From NCBI RefSeq assembly GCF_009649955.1, contig NZ_CP045875.1, positions 619,059 through 683,058 on the forward strand: a DNA stretch of 64,000 bases. Direction: 5' to 3'. Within the stretch, counting starts at the first letter, position 1; every line of letters begins with the position of its first letter. The notes below the pieces were generated by a model. The model was not told where the DNA came from. It searched no databases and saw only the letters and a program-made list of their open reading frames with translations. Shown here piece by piece: positions 4,608 through 51,050 of the stretch. The stretch is from Heliorestis convoluta (GTDB taxonomy: Bacteria > Bacillota > Desulfitobacteriia > Heliobacteriales > Heliobacteriaceae). A program made the position numbers and the translations under genes.

Positions 4608-4640
4608 CTAAGGTAACGATGTTGTAAAAATTCCATACAT

Positions 4641-4826
4641 TCCCGTTAGGTGAGGCTCCTGTACGGAGATATGCTACTGCCCAGAAATGTCGAGAGACGC
4701 CAATGGGTCAACAGTGAAGATCGGCTTAAGGTCTTCGTTAATGTAGCTGGCCAGTCCTATGCTGTACAGTGCTGAAGCTCTACGAGTGGGGAGAAGGGCA
4801 AAGTTTACTTTCTATGCCCTTTTGTT
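4641..4826 (+). ncRNA. M-box (ykoK leader) Mg2+ riboswitch with terminator platform
   Basis: The stretch matches the M-box aptamer closely. GTTAGGTGAGGCTCCTGTAC near 4644 is followed by the conserved AAATGTCGAGAGACGCCAATG and GGTCAACAG blocks, a variable stem with CTTAAGG, then TAATGTAGCTGGC and GCTGAAGCTCTACGA ending near 4787. A terminator-type hairpin (AAGGGCA 4794-4800 pairing with TGCCCTT 4815-4821, then TTTGTT) forms the expression platform. M-boxes bind Mg2+ and shut off magnesium transporter genes when Mg2+ is high. Two mgtE genes lie downstream, as expected. Confidence 0.95.
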
Positions 4827-27276: not shown

Positions 27277-27352
27277 AGGGGAGTAGCTCAACTGGCAGAG
27301 CGGCGGTCTCCAAAACCGTAGGTTGCGGGTTCAAGTCCTGTCTCCCCTGCCA
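27277..27352 (+). tRNA. trnW: tRNA-Trp (anticodon CCA)
   Basis: 76 nt with encoded CCA end. Acceptor AGGGGAG/CTCCCCT with discriminator G; D-arm GCTC-loop-GAGC; anticodon arm GCGGT-CTCCAAA-ACCGT with CCA at 34-36; T-arm with GGTTCAAGTCC. It has its own promoter and terminator. The region right after it is accessory DNA, so it may be an insertion hotspot. Confidence 0.97.
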
Positions 27353-36266: not shown

Positions 36267-36728
36267 CTAAAAAGGCAGATCTTTATCATCGCCTGGATAG
36301 CTGATTTCTTGACCGTATGCATTACTCTGCTGACGTTGTTGCACTGGTCGTCCTTGCTGATAGGAGGACTGATTTTGATGCCCCTGTCCTGTTTCAGAGC
36401 GTTCCAAGAAACGAACATTTTCAGCGATAACTCTAGCAGCTGAACGCTTTTGTCCTGATTGTTGGTCCTGCCATGTGTCTATTTGTAGGCGACCTTCAAT
36501 GGCTACCAATCTACCTTTTGATAAGTACTGACTGCAAACTTGAGCTTGATTGCCAAAAGTGACAATGCTAATCCAGTCTGTCACTTTTTCAGCACCTGCT
36601 TGTCTCTGTACTTGCCCTTGAGGGCGGTCTACGGCAACGCTAAAGCTACATACTTGCGTGCCACTTTGTGCCTGCTTAAGCTCAGGATCTTGCCCAAGCC
36701 GGCCGATGAGGATTACACGATTTAGCAT
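36267..36728 (-). CDS. ssb: Single-stranded DNA-binding protein
   Basis: 153 aa from the ATG at 36728 behind AAGGGGAAG; the frame is open 32 codons further into the leader terminator, which is not plausible. The OB fold spans 1-105 (MLNRVILIGRLGQDPELKQA, FSVAVDRPQG, DWISIVTFGNQAQVCSQYLSKG). A Gln/Gly-rich linker ends in the acidic tip DDKDLPF that binds partner proteins. It is a second, element-borne SSB protecting replication or transfer intermediates. Transcription must cross a leader RNA and terminator. Confidence 0.95.
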   Translation of the reverse strand: MLNRVILIGRLGQDPELKQAQSGTQVCSFSVAVDRPQGQVQRQAGAEKVTDWISIVTFGNQAQVCSQYLSKGRLVAIEGRLQIDTWQDQQSGQKRSAARVIAENVRFLERSETGQGHQNQSSYQQGRPVQQRQQSNAYGQEISYPGDDKDLPF

Positions 36729-36776: not shown

Positions 36777-36839
36777 AAAACAAAAAAAGCCATTGTCGGT
36801 GTGTTTTTGGGCACACCAATCCAATGGCTTTTTGTTTCA
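36777..36839 (-). terminator. Leader terminator before ssb
   Basis: GCCATTGTCGGTGTG pairs with CACACCAATCCAATGGC on either side of the loop GCCCAAAAA (minus strand), with a minus-strand U-run from the plus A-run 36777-36788. The same loop and compensating stem changes occur in the copy at 45034-45090. Confidence 0.8.
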
Positions 36840-36846
36840 AAAATTG

Positions 36847-37044
36847 GGCATGTGGAAATAGATCCACTACCTTTTTCTCATGCGTAAGCACATGAGTTAA
36901 TCAATACGCGATGGCACCCTCACGTTGGGTACTCCAGAAATCTGCATAAATACATGCAAACCATTTCTACCTGGAGCATCTGCATCTGGAATCAGCTTAC
37001 TAAGCAGTCCCTTTGCAGTTCGCTCTTACGAAAGGTAAGAACTT
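36847..37044 (-). ncRNA. Family-I structured leader RNA, copy A (ssb)
   Basis: About 195 nt shared with 45099-45294. Identical blocks: 37007-37023 (17 nt), 36977-36994 (18 nt), 36900-36931 (32 nt) and 36864-36876. Between them lie hairpins whose bases differ but still pair: 37022-37029/37035-37042; GCTTA/TAAGC at 36995-37005; CTCCAG/CTGGAG with inner helices; and CTCATG/CATGAG. A sigma-A promoter ends about 20 nt upstream and a terminator plus ssb follow, so this is a 5' leader acting in cis. It fits no class I can name. Confidence 0.75.
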
Positions 37045-37064
37045 AAAAAGAAATATTCTTAACT

Positions 37065-37093
37065 ATTTTAACATAATTTTTTAGCTTATTCAA
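37065..37093 (-). promoter_or_regulatory. Sigma-A promoter of the ssb leader
   Basis: On the minus strand TTGAAT (37088-37093), 17-bp spacer, TAAAAT (37065-37070). It would start RNA about 15 nt before the first helix of the family-I leader. Confidence 0.65.
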
Positions 37094-37317: not shown

Positions 37318-38235
37318 ATGAGAGATATTGTCGACAATAATTTAAGAGTTTTATCTGAAATACATGAAGATATTTGGAGAAATGAATTAGAAACAGACTT
37401 TTCTGCTGTAAGTACAATTGCATCCATTGAAGAAATTATAAAAGTACTTAACTCATTAGCAAATCAAGTACGTACAATAGTACTAAACCGAAATGAAGTT
37501 GCTACGATGAATGATTTTGATATTTATAACGATATAACTGAACTTCCCGAAAATTTGATAAATGACATAAAAGTAATTAAGATATTAAAAGAGTTTGTAG
37601 GCAATCAAAAAAGAGAAGTAATACTTAATTGTACAAAACCTTCTTTAGAAGCAGCGGGATTTTGGAATATAATTGAAACCTTTGCTCAACATAAAAGAGC
37701 TTTGTCTTGTTTATTGATTTTTCCACAGATCTCTACAGAAGTATTGAAGCAATGTTTGTTCCTTAGTAGCTATGACAGGTTTACATATCACGAATACATA
37801 CTTATACCTGATTTCGAAGGTGTTACAGATTTACGTGAGAGAGCAAGACTCGAACAAGTTCAGCATGTAGGAATTCAAAACCCTCAGTTTACTGTTAGCC
37901 TTGTCAATCAAATTGTTAACCAATACGAACGTGAAAAAAGGACACGAATGCTTAGTAATTGTAGGAATATATTAAACCATGATAATGAAATAATTATTTT
38001 TATTTTAAGAGAGTCGCAAAGAAGTGGTCTTAGGACAATAGAAGAATTTGTGGTTGGTATGAACGCAGATTGGATAGTCCTTAGTTTTTCACGTGATTTA
38101 CGTTCTTTAAGGGTAAGAGCTGTCAATTCAGTAAAGCCAGAGGTTTACGAAACATATGCAATTAAACTATTTAAGTTATGTCAAAACTTGAATATAACTA
38201 CGTTAGACGAAGTGATGGTAATGGAATTGATGTAG
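37318..38235 (+). CDS. Unknown protein A of AT-rich three-gene cassette
   Basis: 305 aa from the ATG at 37318 behind AAGGAG (the frame is open 24 codons upstream without a site). Its start is helical (DIVDNNLRVLSEIHEDIWRN). The middle has strands and helices such as REVILNCTKPSLEAAGFW and HEYILIPDFEGVTDLRERA. Near the end EIIIFILRESQRSGLRTIEE then DWIVLSFSRDLRSLRVRAV recalls a DHHA1-type or other alpha/beta fold, but weakly. I recognise no catalytic motif. It is far richer in A/T than the flanking genes and opposite in strand, so it is cargo. Confidence 0.6.
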   Translation: MRDIVDNNLRVLSEIHEDIWRNELETDFSAVSTIASIEEIIKVLNSLANQVRTIVLNRNEVATMNDFDIYNDITELPENLINDIKVIKILKEFVGNQKREVILNCTKPSLEAAGFWNIIETFAQHKRALSCLLIFPQISTEVLKQCLFLSSYDRFTYHEYILIPDFEGVTDLRERARLEQVQHVGIQNPQFTVSLVNQIVNQYEREKRTRMLSNCRNILNHDNEIIIFILRESQRSGLRTIEEFVVGMNADWIVLSFSRDLRSLRVRAVNSVKPEVYETYAIKLFKLCQNLNITTLDEVMVMELM

Positions 38236-38624
38236 TTAATGAATTTATAGCATCCATTTGTGGAAACAGAATAGCTCATGTTGAACTTGAAGAGTTAGAG
38301 TTATCAAACTGCCCTTTTCCTGGAAGACCAAACATCACTATTAGAAGAACATCAATAAATGTTACTCTTACTCAAACATTGGATGCAAATTTCAATGGTT
38401 TCTTTCTTCACTCCCTATTACCGGAGTGTGATGTTAGTAAAATGAAGTTTAAATACGAGACATTAAATAATAAGCACTTATTTACATTAAAATTTAAGAG
38501 ATATGATATGCAAATATATATTCATATTAGTGGAACTGGTGGAGGGATAAGGAAAAGACAAAGTTTAATTCAATATCTAAGAGATATAGCTAATATCACA
38601 ATACTTGAAAAAACAGAGGGATGA
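38178..38624 (+). CDS. Unknown protein B of AT-rich three-gene cassette
   Basis: 148 aa. Its first ATG lies 58 nt inside the end of gene A with no clear ribosome site, so translation is probably coupled to gene A. The sequence alternates strands and a Gly-rich turn (IYIHISGTGGGIRKRQSLIQYL), with an ELEELELSNCPFPGRPNITI segment. No family is recognised. It overlaps gene C by 4 nt (ATGA), so the three genes form one tight operon and probably one complex. Confidence 0.5.
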   Translation: MSKLEYNYVRRSDGNGIDVVNEFIASICGNRIAHVELEELELSNCPFPGRPNITIRRTSINVTLTQTLDANFNGFFLHSLLPECDVSKMKFKYETLNNKHLFTLKFKRYDMQIYIHISGTGGGIRKRQSLIQYLRDIANITILEKTEG

Positions 38625-39796
38625 TTATGTTACTATTAATTGGAACAAGATTTCAAGCTGAAGCCGTTCCTGAAGATATAACGAAACTTACTAGTTTTGG
38701 CTTTATAACTCTATCTGAATATTTATTATCAAATTGTAATGGTCGAGAGAGTGTAAACATTGCCAACAGAATTGAAGGCTGTGGAGAATTAATATCGATA
38801 ACTAATAGAAAAACAGAAGAGCTTATTCAATGTTCTAATTGTGAAGCAGAATATACGTATGAAGAAATAAAAGTAAACGCTCAGCGTATAAAAGAAATTA
38901 AAGAAATAAAATACAATAAAATAATTGATTACATTCTCGAAAAAGTAAAAAATACAAATGTTGAAATCGAAGAGATAGCACGCAGGACAGGTAATTATAT
39001 TTTTAGAATAAATGAAAAAAGTTTTTTTGTTGTTTTTAATTTTCCTAATTGTAATTTGGAGACATTACTCTTAAATAGAGCGAAGAATCAATTTATTATC
39101 CTTATAAATTTTTCTGAAAAGATTCCCTCTATACCTGGAGAAGTTATTGTATTCTCTGGTTATGAAATATTAGAAGATGGCTTTGAATCGTTTAAGCATA
39201 TTTTAAGAGATTTGCCTACCTGTTCGGAATTAATAGAAAAAGTAAGGCTAGTCCCTTCAATTGAAACAAAAATAATTGAATTGGGGAAAAAAATAGAGTG
39301 GCAATTTTTCGAAAACGAAATATCTAATTTTATAATGCATGAGATTAAATCCAGAAGTGAACAGAGATACCTTTATTGGTTATTATTAAACCATCATCCG
39401 GAGTTAAAACATATATTGGTAAATGCAGGGGGTGCTGGTAAAGCAGATAAATTACCAATTATATTAAGCGAATATTTATCAGACATGCTTAGGGAACCAG
39501 CTACTATGGATGCTAAGCTTTATTCTACGACTAAAGTAACTAATACTACTATGGAAAAAGTAACTCATCACATGCTTTTAAGTGATTCCAAAACAACTAG
39601 AGTAATAATTTTTACAACAACAAACGATGTGACTTGTTGGGAAGATGTTTTTTCAGCTAAAAGAAAATACGGATATTTCAAACTGCTAATTTTGACTGCA
39701 AGGATTCTGTCTGAAATATCAGTTCATCTTGAGTTTCATACTGAACTTATTGAGAAAATGCAATCTCGTATACCCCATTCAAAAACAAGTGGTTGA
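38621..39796 (+). CDS. Unknown protein C of AT-rich three-gene cassette
   Basis: 391 aa, ATG in a 4-nt overlap with gene B; a second ATG two codons later has better spacing to AGAGGG. A single CxxC (IQCSNCEAEYTYEE near residue 70) could be half a zinc site. A long Lys/Ile-rich helix follows, then an alpha/beta part (FIILINFSEKIPSIPGEVIVF) that could be a nuclease-like or P-loop-free sensor core, then a helical tail with SEQRYLYWLLLNHHPELK and VTRVIIFTTTND-like strands. Function unknown. It is followed by a strong terminator. Confidence 0.55.
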   Translation: MIMLLLIGTRFQAEAVPEDITKLTSFGFITLSEYLLSNCNGRESVNIANRIEGCGELISITNRKTEELIQCSNCEAEYTYEEIKVNAQRIKEIKEIKYNKIIDYILEKVKNTNVEIEEIARRTGNYIFRINEKSFFVVFNFPNCNLETLLLNRAKNQFIILINFSEKIPSIPGEVIVFSGYEILEDGFESFKHILRDLPTCSELIEKVRLVPSIETKIIELGKKIEWQFFENEISNFIMHEIKSRSEQRYLYWLLLNHHPELKHILVNAGGAGKADKLPIILSEYLSDMLREPATMDAKLYSTTKVTNTTMEKVTHHMLLSDSKTTRVIIFTTTNDVTCWEDVFSAKRKYGYFKLLILTARILSEISVHLEFHTELIEKMQSRIPHSKTSG

Positions 39797-43998: not shown

Positions 43999-44907
43999 TT
44001 AAGCAGTAACAACGACAAGAGAACCATTGTTTTCTTGGCGAGCTTGAAACTCGACTTCTTGTCCTTGTTTCCAAGCAGCTACGATGGGCGCTGTTCCATC
44101 GATTCCATAGACGTTTATGTTTTGACCATTCATAGTCACGATTGAACGAGCTACTTTGCGTCCATTGTTTTCAACGGGTCCTTGCCCATTTTGAGATACT
44201 GTACCTACAAAAGTGGGTTGGCTTTGTTGTGCTTTCATTTGCGAAATCGCTCTTAATTCTTGCTCCGTTGTTGGTTGCTGCAATTGACCACCTTCAACAA
44301 CATCTAACCGTGGCTTTTCTTTCTTTTCAACTTCTTCAATAGCTACATGCACTTCTTCAGCACTGGCAATGCCACTACCAAGTAGAACATAGCCTAAGAA
44401 GCCCAATGCACGACCGATAACGCTTGTTTCAGCATTTTCAAAAGGATTTGTTGAATCCACACCGCCACCACCGACACCAAGCTTTGCTGTGGCCGTGACG
44501 CTTCCATGGATTTCTGAGTCAATTGTTACTCTTGCAAGTTTTAATTGGCTATCAAACTGAACTGGATGAATTGTAAGTTTGCAGCCTTTTTCTTTATGTT
44601 CGTGTCTTGCCCAAGCTACACGTGCCTCTACGGTTAAGTAAGGCTTGCTAACGCTTAGATAAGTGCCTTTGTCACTCGACCATAACCCTAAACTTTGAGC
44701 GACTTGATCAATAAAAATTTGTTGGTTGGCCATCTTTTGATTACGCTCAATGGCAACAATACCACCGTGTAACCACTCTGGAATTGCAGCCTTTGCCGAA
44801 GCAAACTCTTCACTTTCTTTGACCTTGATTGCCCTGGCTTTTTCGATAAGCCAACCTTGTGTCTGTTGCCCTTGGCCTCTTTGCTGGTTTGCTTGCACAT
44901 CCATCAT
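43999..44907 (-). CDS. Erf/Rad52-like single-strand annealing protein
   Basis: 302 aa. Start unsure: ATG-ATG at 44907/44904 or GTG at 44898, behind AAAGG. The core (about 25-185) ends in NPFENAETSVIGRALGFLGY, the hallmark of Erf/Rad52-type annealing proteins (ETSAIGRAL), preceded by a beta-sheet segment (LTIHPVQFD, ARVTIDSEI). The tail is Gln-rich with an OB-like end. It would anneal complementary ssDNA. With the Cas4-like nuclease and SSB it makes a Red-like recombination set. Its 5' region carries the family-I leader and two terminators. Confidence 0.75.
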   Translation of the reverse strand: MMDVQANQQRGQGQQTQGWLIEKARAIKVKESEEFASAKAAIPEWLHGGIVAIERNQKMANQQIFIDQVAQSLGLWSSDKGTYLSVSKPYLTVEARVAWARHEHKEKGCKLTIHPVQFDSQLKLARVTIDSEIHGSVTATAKLGVGGGGVDSTNPFENAETSVIGRALGFLGYVLLGSGIASAEEVHVAIEEVEKKEKPRLDVVEGGQLQQPTTEQELRAISQMKAQQSQPTFVGTVSQNGQGPVENNGRKVARSIVTMNGQNINVYGIDGTAPIVAAWKQGQEVEFQARQENNGSLVVVTA

Positions 44908-44926
44908 CCTTTCTTTTTTTGACTAA

Positions 44927-44985
44927 AACAAAAACCGCTTGCATGATTGATAGTAGAAATCAATTCGCACAAAGCGGTTTTGTTT
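44927..44985 (-). terminator. Second leader terminator before the annealing-protein gene
   Basis: AACCGCTT pairs with AAGCGGTT, with inner pairing (GATTGAT/ATCAATT) and AAACAAAA/TTTTGTTT flanks. It is directed on the minus strand. Confidence 0.7.
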
Positions 44986-45033
44986 CAATCTATGGTTTTC
45001 GTCGCTCTCCGAAAAACTGGAGAACATTTTAAA

Positions 45034-45090
45034 CAAAAAAAGCCGTTGTGAAGTGCTTTTTGGGCACACTTCGACAACGGCTTTTTGTTT
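45034..45090 (-). terminator. First leader terminator before the annealing-protein gene
   Basis: GCCGTTGT-GAAGTG pairs with CACTTC-ACAACGGC. The loop GCCCAAAAA and outer flanks match the ssb leader terminator while the stem bases change in pairs. Confidence 0.8.
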
Positions 45091-45098
45091 ACTAAATC

Positions 45099-45294
45099 TG
45101 GTATGTGGTAAAACCACTACCTTTTTATGCAAGGATAGAACCCCTGCATAGACATCAATACGCGATGGCACCCTCACGTTGGGTATCCCGGAAGTTTGTA
45201 GAGTACAAACCATTTCAGTCCGAGACATCTGCATCTGGAATCACTCTTTAACAAAGTGTCCCTTTGCAGTTCGCTTGAACTTTGGCTCAAACTT
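45099..45294 (-). ncRNA. Family-I structured leader RNA, copy B (annealing-protein gene)
   Basis: Identical blocks to copy A at 45258-45274, 45226-45243, 45154-45185 and 45114-45126. Compensating helices: 45273-45280/45285-45292; CACT-TTT/AAAGTG near 45242-45258; TCCCGG/CCGAGA with inner GTTTGT/ACAAAC; and TATGCA/TGCATA at 45127-45150. A perfect promoter lies 20 nt upstream and two tandem terminators lie between it and the gene. Confidence 0.75.
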
Positions 45295-50180: not shown

Positions 50181-51050
50181 CTAAAAACGCTTTCCCGTGA
50201 TGTTTGCTGTTATGACGGCTCTAATCCTTTTGCTTTCAGCATTGATACCTTGTATTTGAAGAATCACTTTATCGCCTACATCGATACGAATAAACTTAGG
50301 ATGATTCACTCTTGAATATACGCCTGTTTCCAATGTCACGAAAAAGCCTGATTCGGAGTTTCCCGTAACTACACCTATGTACATGCCACCGAGCTTATAC
50401 TTAGAGGGCACTGTTTGCCAGGGATCAGCTAGTAACGGCTTTAAGCTAACAGTAACTTCTTTCTTTTCCTTGTCCAGCCCAGTAATTGCTACAGTGACTG
50501 TATCACCAGCTTGATACTTTTCTCGTAAGTCTTCAATATAGCCGTGGCTAGCATTTTCAGCCTTTAGAATCGTGTAAACTCCACCTAAATCAACCATACC
50601 ATATTTACGACCTACTCTTCTAAAAACAGCATCACGTGTTTTTCCTACTTCTAACTCTTTCCATGTGAGGTTCGCAATTTGTTGAAGGGCTTCCTGCCTT
50701 GACGCAACAACAAGGTTTATGTCTCTATCGACTGCTTTTACCTTGAATGCGACTTGTTTCCCAAGCAAGAAACGTAGCCTCTCTTCGTTGCTTACGCCAC
50801 TTGCTGATAAGGGAATAATCACTCGTACATCTGTATCAAGAAAAACAATAAGACAAGGTTGTTCTTCAATGCCTACAACCTTGCCTTTTTCATCTCTGAC
50901 GGGAGCTTCTAAGTGTTCCAGTCCTGTTGCTAATCCTTGCATAACCAGGCCGTTTTGTTGCGCTCGATAAATCTCTGGCCAGATTGATTCTTGTTGTTTT
51001 CGATCTTGTTCGTAACCTTCAGGACGAAGTGATGAAACTATGTTACTCAT
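50181..51050 (-). CDS. S1 RNA-binding domain protein
   Basis: 289 aa. A first S1-like domain lies at ~130-205 (KYGMVDLGGVYTILKAENAS, then YQAGDTVTVAITGLDKEKKE, VTVSLK) and a second at ~212-285 (GGMYIGVVTGNSESGFFVTL, DVGDKVILQIQGINAESKRI). The N-terminal ~120 residues form another beta-rich domain with IVFLDTDVRVIIPLSA. It probably binds RNA or ssDNA. It lies 23 bp after the VirD4-like gene on the other side and is likely in the conjugation/replication unit of the element. Confidence 0.75.
   Translation of the reverse strand: MSNIVSSLRPEGYEQDRKQQESIWPEIYRAQQNGLVMQGLATGLEHLEAPVRDEKGKVVGIEEQPCLIVFLDTDVRVIIPLSASGVSNEERLRFLLGKQVAFKVKAVDRDINLVVASRQEALQQIANLTWKELEVGKTRDAVFRRVGRKYGMVDLGGVYTILKAENASHGYIEDLREKYQAGDTVTVAITGLDKEKKEVTVSLKPLLADPWQTVPSKYKLGGMYIGVVTGNSESGFFVTLETGVYSRVNHPKFIRIDVGDKVILQIQGINAESKRIRAVITANITGKRF

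Follow-up and report, generated by a model that had tools for sequence, protein, structure and literature searches.

Only a handful of RNAs (put, EAR, conAn2 and canT) are known to cause RNA polymerase to disregard terminators, and the features that their folds have in common are little understood. The put element of phage HK022 is present in two copies per element, each heading an early operon. PMC9378689 describes put RNA as rendering polymerase terminator-resistant without any other factor. EAR, a leader RNA of Bacillus eps operons, causes antitermination in Bacillota with, as far as is known, no need for a protein (PMC11658703). Two further RNA antiterminators, conAn2 of pLS20 (PMC8955417) and canT of Tn916 (PMC11658703), serve conjugation operons of Gram-positive bacteria.

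The window analysed here is a stretch of 64,000 nucleotides from Heliorestis convoluta (contig NZ_CP045875.1, positions 619,059 to 683,058). It holds an integrated conjugative-type element that carries, on the minus strand, two copies of a structured leader RNA; the initial annotation had not spelled out this strand. The element encodes a VirD4/TraG-like ATPase, replication-relaxation-like proteins, an S1-domain protein, SSB, DUF6744, MoxR and VWA proteins, a primase, a PD-(D/E)XK nuclease and RadC. Copy A (~37043-36847, minus strand) lies ahead of ssb, and copy B (45294-45100, minus strand) lies ahead of an operon for a 302-aa protein (p302, no Pfam match), primase and nuclease. The parts of both copies and the first genes behind them are listed below in window coordinates.

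37065..37093, minus strand: copy A extended -10 sigma-70-type promoter, TTGAAT-17-TAAAAT
37022..37042, minus strand: copy A P1 hairpin, present in the Heliorestis ICE copies and missing from the sister genus
36980..37018, minus strand: copy A P2, built of CUGCA/UGCAG and GGGA/UUCC stems and capped by a variable hairpin
36930..36978, minus strand: copy A P3, a stack of two 8-9 bp stems with a one-sided 7-nt bulge (UAGAAAU)
36906..36930, minus strand: copy A H-type pseudoknot, S1 ACCC/GGGU, S2 ACGUGA/UCGCGU, L3 GCCA (alignment A5)
36877..36896, minus strand: copy A P5 hairpin, variable in sequence, pairing in all copies (outside copies A and B, P5 was read off the sequence)
36847..36871, minus strand: copy A P6 hairpin, GGUA-GUGG...CCAC-A-UGCC
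36777..36833, minus strand: copy A intrinsic terminator with U tract, -25.0 kcal/mol
36267..36728, minus strand: ssb, first gene behind copy A, with no space for an additional promoter between terminator and start codon
45314..45342, minus strand: copy B extended -10 promoter, TTGAGT-17-TACAAT
45273..45292, minus strand: copy B P1 hairpin
45229..45269, minus strand: copy B P2
45184..45227, minus strand: copy B P3 with one-sided bulge
45160..45184, minus strand: copy B H-type pseudoknot
45126..45150, minus strand: copy B P5 hairpin
45100..45121, minus strand: copy B P6 hairpin
45030..45086, minus strand: copy B terminator T1, -26.7 kcal/mol
44925..44981, minus strand: copy B T2, another terminator-like hairpin of -17.7 kcal/mol with a U-rich stretch behind it
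43999..44907, minus strand: p302 (302 aa), opening the operon behind copy B; primase-like, PD-(D/E)XK nuclease and RadC genes come next

Other features were also recorded in the window. An abiF RNA (RF03085; 39909-39945, minus strand) scored 39.3 bits, barely over the gathering score, and adjoins plus-strand genes at 37318-39796 that have no Pfam match; this region between RadC and ssb is probably defence cargo, and in the sister genus a PAPS-reductase-like gene occupies its position. A tRNA-Trp gene (27277-27352), near a type I restriction-like gene on the left side of the element, is a possible integration site. The S1-domain gene contains a terminator-like hairpin of -16.1 kcal/mol on its coding strand (50813-50850), and the host part of the window carries an M-box (ykoK) magnesium riboswitch (4635-4797, 141.5 bits).

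When the home genome (a single contig of 3,218,981 bases) was searched with copy A, the best match after the query itself was copy B (E = 3.5e-34). The initial annotation had described shared blocks of 17, 18 and 32 nucleotides. All three are present, but the first, AGCGAACTGCAAAGGGAC, is 18 nucleotides long rather than 17; the others are TGATTCCAGATGCAGATG (18 nucleotides) and TACCCAACGTGAGGGTGCCATCGCGTATTGAT (32 nucleotides). The hairpins between the blocks, noted earlier as differing in sequence yet still pairing, indeed pair in both copies and conform to one common structure. Folding of copies A and B gave z-scores of -7.8 and -8.5, for which the terminator hairpin is partly responsible.

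Searches for further homologues raised the total to eight copies in three species of one family. Two extra copies in the home genome precede a tyrosine-recombinase gene and belong to a repeated, integrase-bearing mobile element (L009:13020-13280 and L010:9180-9400); these two adjoin different element-edge genes (for a CxxCxxCC protein; SIR2-like and PLD-like genes). Both ICE copies are present in H. acidaminivorans, and a different heliobacterial genus (genome G007, locus L038) has a syntenic element, reached via DUF6744, with two diverged copies ahead of its own ssb and p302 genes. A covariance model built from the Heliorestis copies only (R1), to which L038 was unseen, was run on 12.5 kb of that locus. 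Its top two matches were the two leaders (E = 9e-7 and 6e-5; the next match had E = 0.8), so that the only significant matches fell at the same two gene positions as in Heliorestis. A model of all eight copies (R2), searched against 399 genomes from the phylum and 83 from the class, found matches in these three species alone. DNA-pattern scans of genome contigs returned only H. acidaminivorans, and those of viral contigs returned no match, as did BLAST of the leader RNA against phages and plasmids. Weak model matches in other genera (L019-L021, L049-L051 and L053) were rejected as copies: L020, L021 and L053 lie within protein genes, and L019 and L049-L051 score 21-29 bits, with pairs disrupted or the pseudoknot missing, as chance would produce over 400 genomes. 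Run with filters off, R1 and R2 detected no copy in elements elsewhere that contain DUF6744 or p302 homologues (L033-L041, L046-L047 and L054-L058). None of the 4227 families of Rfam 15, riboswitch classes included, matched at or above its gathering score, and permissive thresholds yielded merely miRNA and sRNA noise, chiefly over the terminator hairpin. None of the outcomes that the initial annotation had named as refuting it was seen: there is no Rfam match, homologues exist beyond the two copies, and the wider alignment described below shows covariation.

All eight copies have P2 (CUGC...GCAGAUG), P3 and the H-type pseudoknot. P3 consists of two stacked 8-bp stems with an asymmetric 6-7 nt bulge ending in AAAU. 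The pseudoknot reads ACCC-A-ACGUGA-GGGU-GCCA-UCGCGU in the Heliorestis ICE copies, UCCG-A-CAGUGA-CGGA-GGAA-UCGCUG at L003, and UCCG-G-UGCAG-CGGA-GAGAA-CUGCG and UCCG-GA-UGUGG-CGGA-GUGAA-CCACA at L038, with A-U to U-A and C-G to G-C exchanges in S1. In the six ssb and p302 leaders, the variable hairpin P5 is followed by hairpin P6 and then by a strong terminator; the integrase copies, as read from their sequences, have a P5-like hairpin with merely a weak terminator-like hairpin behind it. In the structure model, pair 53-116, which would close P3 and forms in four of the eight copies, was replaced by the pseudoknot pair 116-130, which forms in all eight. In alignment A5 of the eight copies, standard pairs occupy 99.3% of 268 pair cells. 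Both sides have changed in 19 of 35 pairs, and covariation is upheld in the wider alignment, a sample of eight sequences from three species that represents few independent events. The covariation score was 0.585, compared with 0.22 for shuffles and at most 0.12 for slid versions, the slid controls favouring the structure because it was derived from these same sequences. The heliobacterial leader RNA is a genuine and new family of structured RNAs, narrowly distributed, with a cis-regulatory role that is predicted from sequence.

An extended -10 promoter stands ahead of every copy tested, including both L038 leaders. In copies A and B it ends ~20 nt before the first stem, in agreement with the proposed start 15-20 nt after a sigma-A promoter. 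The terminator reported to follow the leader was found behind both copies, and no other terminator on that strand of the element is as strong as these two; behind copy B there are tandem terminators, T1 and T2. The terminator loop GCCCAAAAA, described as kept, is retained in Heliorestis, whereas the sister genus lacks it. When the two Heliorestis species are compared, identity is 97% (A) and 93% (B) for the leader RNA and 94-97% for the terminators; for the same species pair it is 48% (A) and 26% (B) in the DNA upstream of the promoter and 79% in the ssb gene, a contrast that points to selection on the RNA. No conventional promoter was found between the copy A terminator and ssb, so ssb is probably reached by read-through.

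The slot occupied by the leader was also seen with a different RNA. In G160, a more distant genome of the same phylum, a TTGACA/TATAAT promoter leads into a structured stretch, two terminators and then a p302 homologue. This stretch occurs five times, twice ahead of DUF6744:

L059:1528-1642: G160 RNA copy
L060:1420-1536: G160 RNA copy
L061:209-325, minus strand: G160 RNA copy
L062:1525-1657: G160 RNA copy
L063:1525-1657: G160 RNA copy

The G160 RNA has conserved blocks of its own (GGUAGCAAGA and GAAUAUCUCGU...UGCGAG) and a few compensatory pairs. It matches neither Rfam nor R2 and is unrelated to the heliobacterial leader RNA. Conservation of the slot without conservation of the RNA points to a general function, for example antitermination, rather than to a single ligand.

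The layout had originally been read as that of a riboswitch or an antitermination RNA. The layout itself is supported, and of the two predicted activities antitermination is favoured: no conserved alternative pairing is seen, two operons of one mobile element share the RNA, and an unrelated RNA fills the same slot in G160. With somewhat better than even confidence, we regard the leader as a putative new RNA-type antiterminator, similar to canT, conAn2 or put. A structured RNA near the transcript start with terminators downstream is a feature of that class. The fold, its covariation, the promoter and terminator layout and the conserved position in two genera come directly from computation; read-through, action in cis, processivity and any protein partner are what we infer. 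Transcription would start ~20 nt upstream of the fold, and the nascent RNA would form P2, P3 with its AAAU-rich bulge, the H-type pseudoknot, P5 and P6. The folded leader, by itself or together with a protein of the host or the element, may then act on the elongating RNA polymerase, which would pass the strong downstream terminator or terminators and express the ssb and p302 operons, while leader-less transcripts entering from elsewhere would halt at the leader terminators. Internal terminator-like hairpins in the two operons are few and only weak; long-range processivity is therefore unsupported, and the clear targets are the leader terminators only. The two tyrosine-recombinase copies, with nothing stronger than a weak hairpin behind them, count against antitermination, as does the restriction of the RNA to three species of one family.

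An unlikely alternative is a riboswitch or protein-binding attenuator, in which a ligand or an element protein (e.g. SSB or the S1-domain protein) decides whether the terminator forms. A promoter, a compact conserved fold and a terminator before a gene are the usual layout of a transcriptional riboswitch, the conserved unpaired AAAU bulge and the pseudoknot could provide a binding site, and the element does encode an S1-domain protein. Such a mechanism needs competition between fold and terminator, however, and a conserved, mutually exclusive terminator/antiterminator pairing was not found: across copies, leader-terminator duplex energies equal those of shuffled leaders, and the sites differ from copy to copy, which counts against a riboswitch. 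One candidate, AAAUGGUUU in P3, pairs with a terminator arm in an antiterminator-like manner in Heliorestis; it did no better than shuffles, and the sister genus does not have it. Moreover, P6 stands between the fold and the terminator, and the RNA heads two DNA-processing operons and adjoins an integrase in another mobile element, with no metabolic genes. It is improbable that the product is instead a trans-acting small RNA of ~285 nt ending at the terminator, with ssb and p302 reached only by leaky read-through. Each site has its own promoter and strong terminator, which fits such a product, but all eight copies stay ahead of mobile-element genes, both syntenic genes carry a leader in two genera, and no alternative promoter for ssb or p302 was found.

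Two other readings fare worse. Frpo/ssi-type single-strand promoters occur in the leading region of conjugative plasmids, and ssb, primase and related genes, such as those of this element, commonly count among the early or leading-region genes of conjugative elements; the relevant folded form could accordingly be single-stranded DNA. We consider this very improbable. The pair cells include 44 G-U and no A-C combinations, with several G-U pairs invariant, which indicates that the folding strand is the transcribed one, as RNA; in the copies tested, a double-strand promoter with normal spacing also lies outside the fold. Ribosome-dependent attenuation through a translated leader peptide is scarcely credible. 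A conserved AUG (GCAGAUG) opens a short frame in each copy, but the copies share no reading frame, the length (19 to 101 codons) and the residues vary from copy to copy, their length differences are not multiples of three, and no ribosome-binding site is kept. A protein-coding reading of the leader was rejected.

As a putative antiterminator, the leader can be set beside the known systems. It resembles put in having two copies per element at operon starts; put is much smaller and has only two stem-loops, and a search of a phage collection with the leader RNA gave no sequence match. Like canT, it is a structured RNA early in a main transcript of a Bacillota ICE, before terminators that guard DNA-processing genes (PMC11658703). 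The description of canT sets the two apart, since canT is 452 nt long in Tn916 and present in a single copy per element, and conservation of structure was not analysed there (PMC11658703). The pLS20 system, composed of the ConAn1 protein and conAn2 RNA, likewise has an RNA part that opens a Gram-positive conjugation operon with internal terminators (PMC8955417). In contrast, the heliobacterial element lacks a recognised ConAn1-like first gene, has the leader twice and contains few internal terminators; R2 found nothing better than E = 0.34 in 49 kb of pLS20, including the start of the conjugation operon. EAR precedes different genes, and the heliobacterial leader is without any Rfam match.

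A compact RNA of ~200 nt with a covariation-supported fold and a pseudoknot offers a concrete target for work on structure and mechanism. Its layout suggests how these elements, while integrated, hold their DNA-processing genes silent. Tentatively, mobile elements of Clostridia and their relatives may use several unrelated RNA antiterminators, including the heliobacterial and G160 classes, in the ssb/p302/DUF6744 slot. If so, polymerase-modifying RNAs would have repeatedly arisen or been exchanged among conjugative elements.
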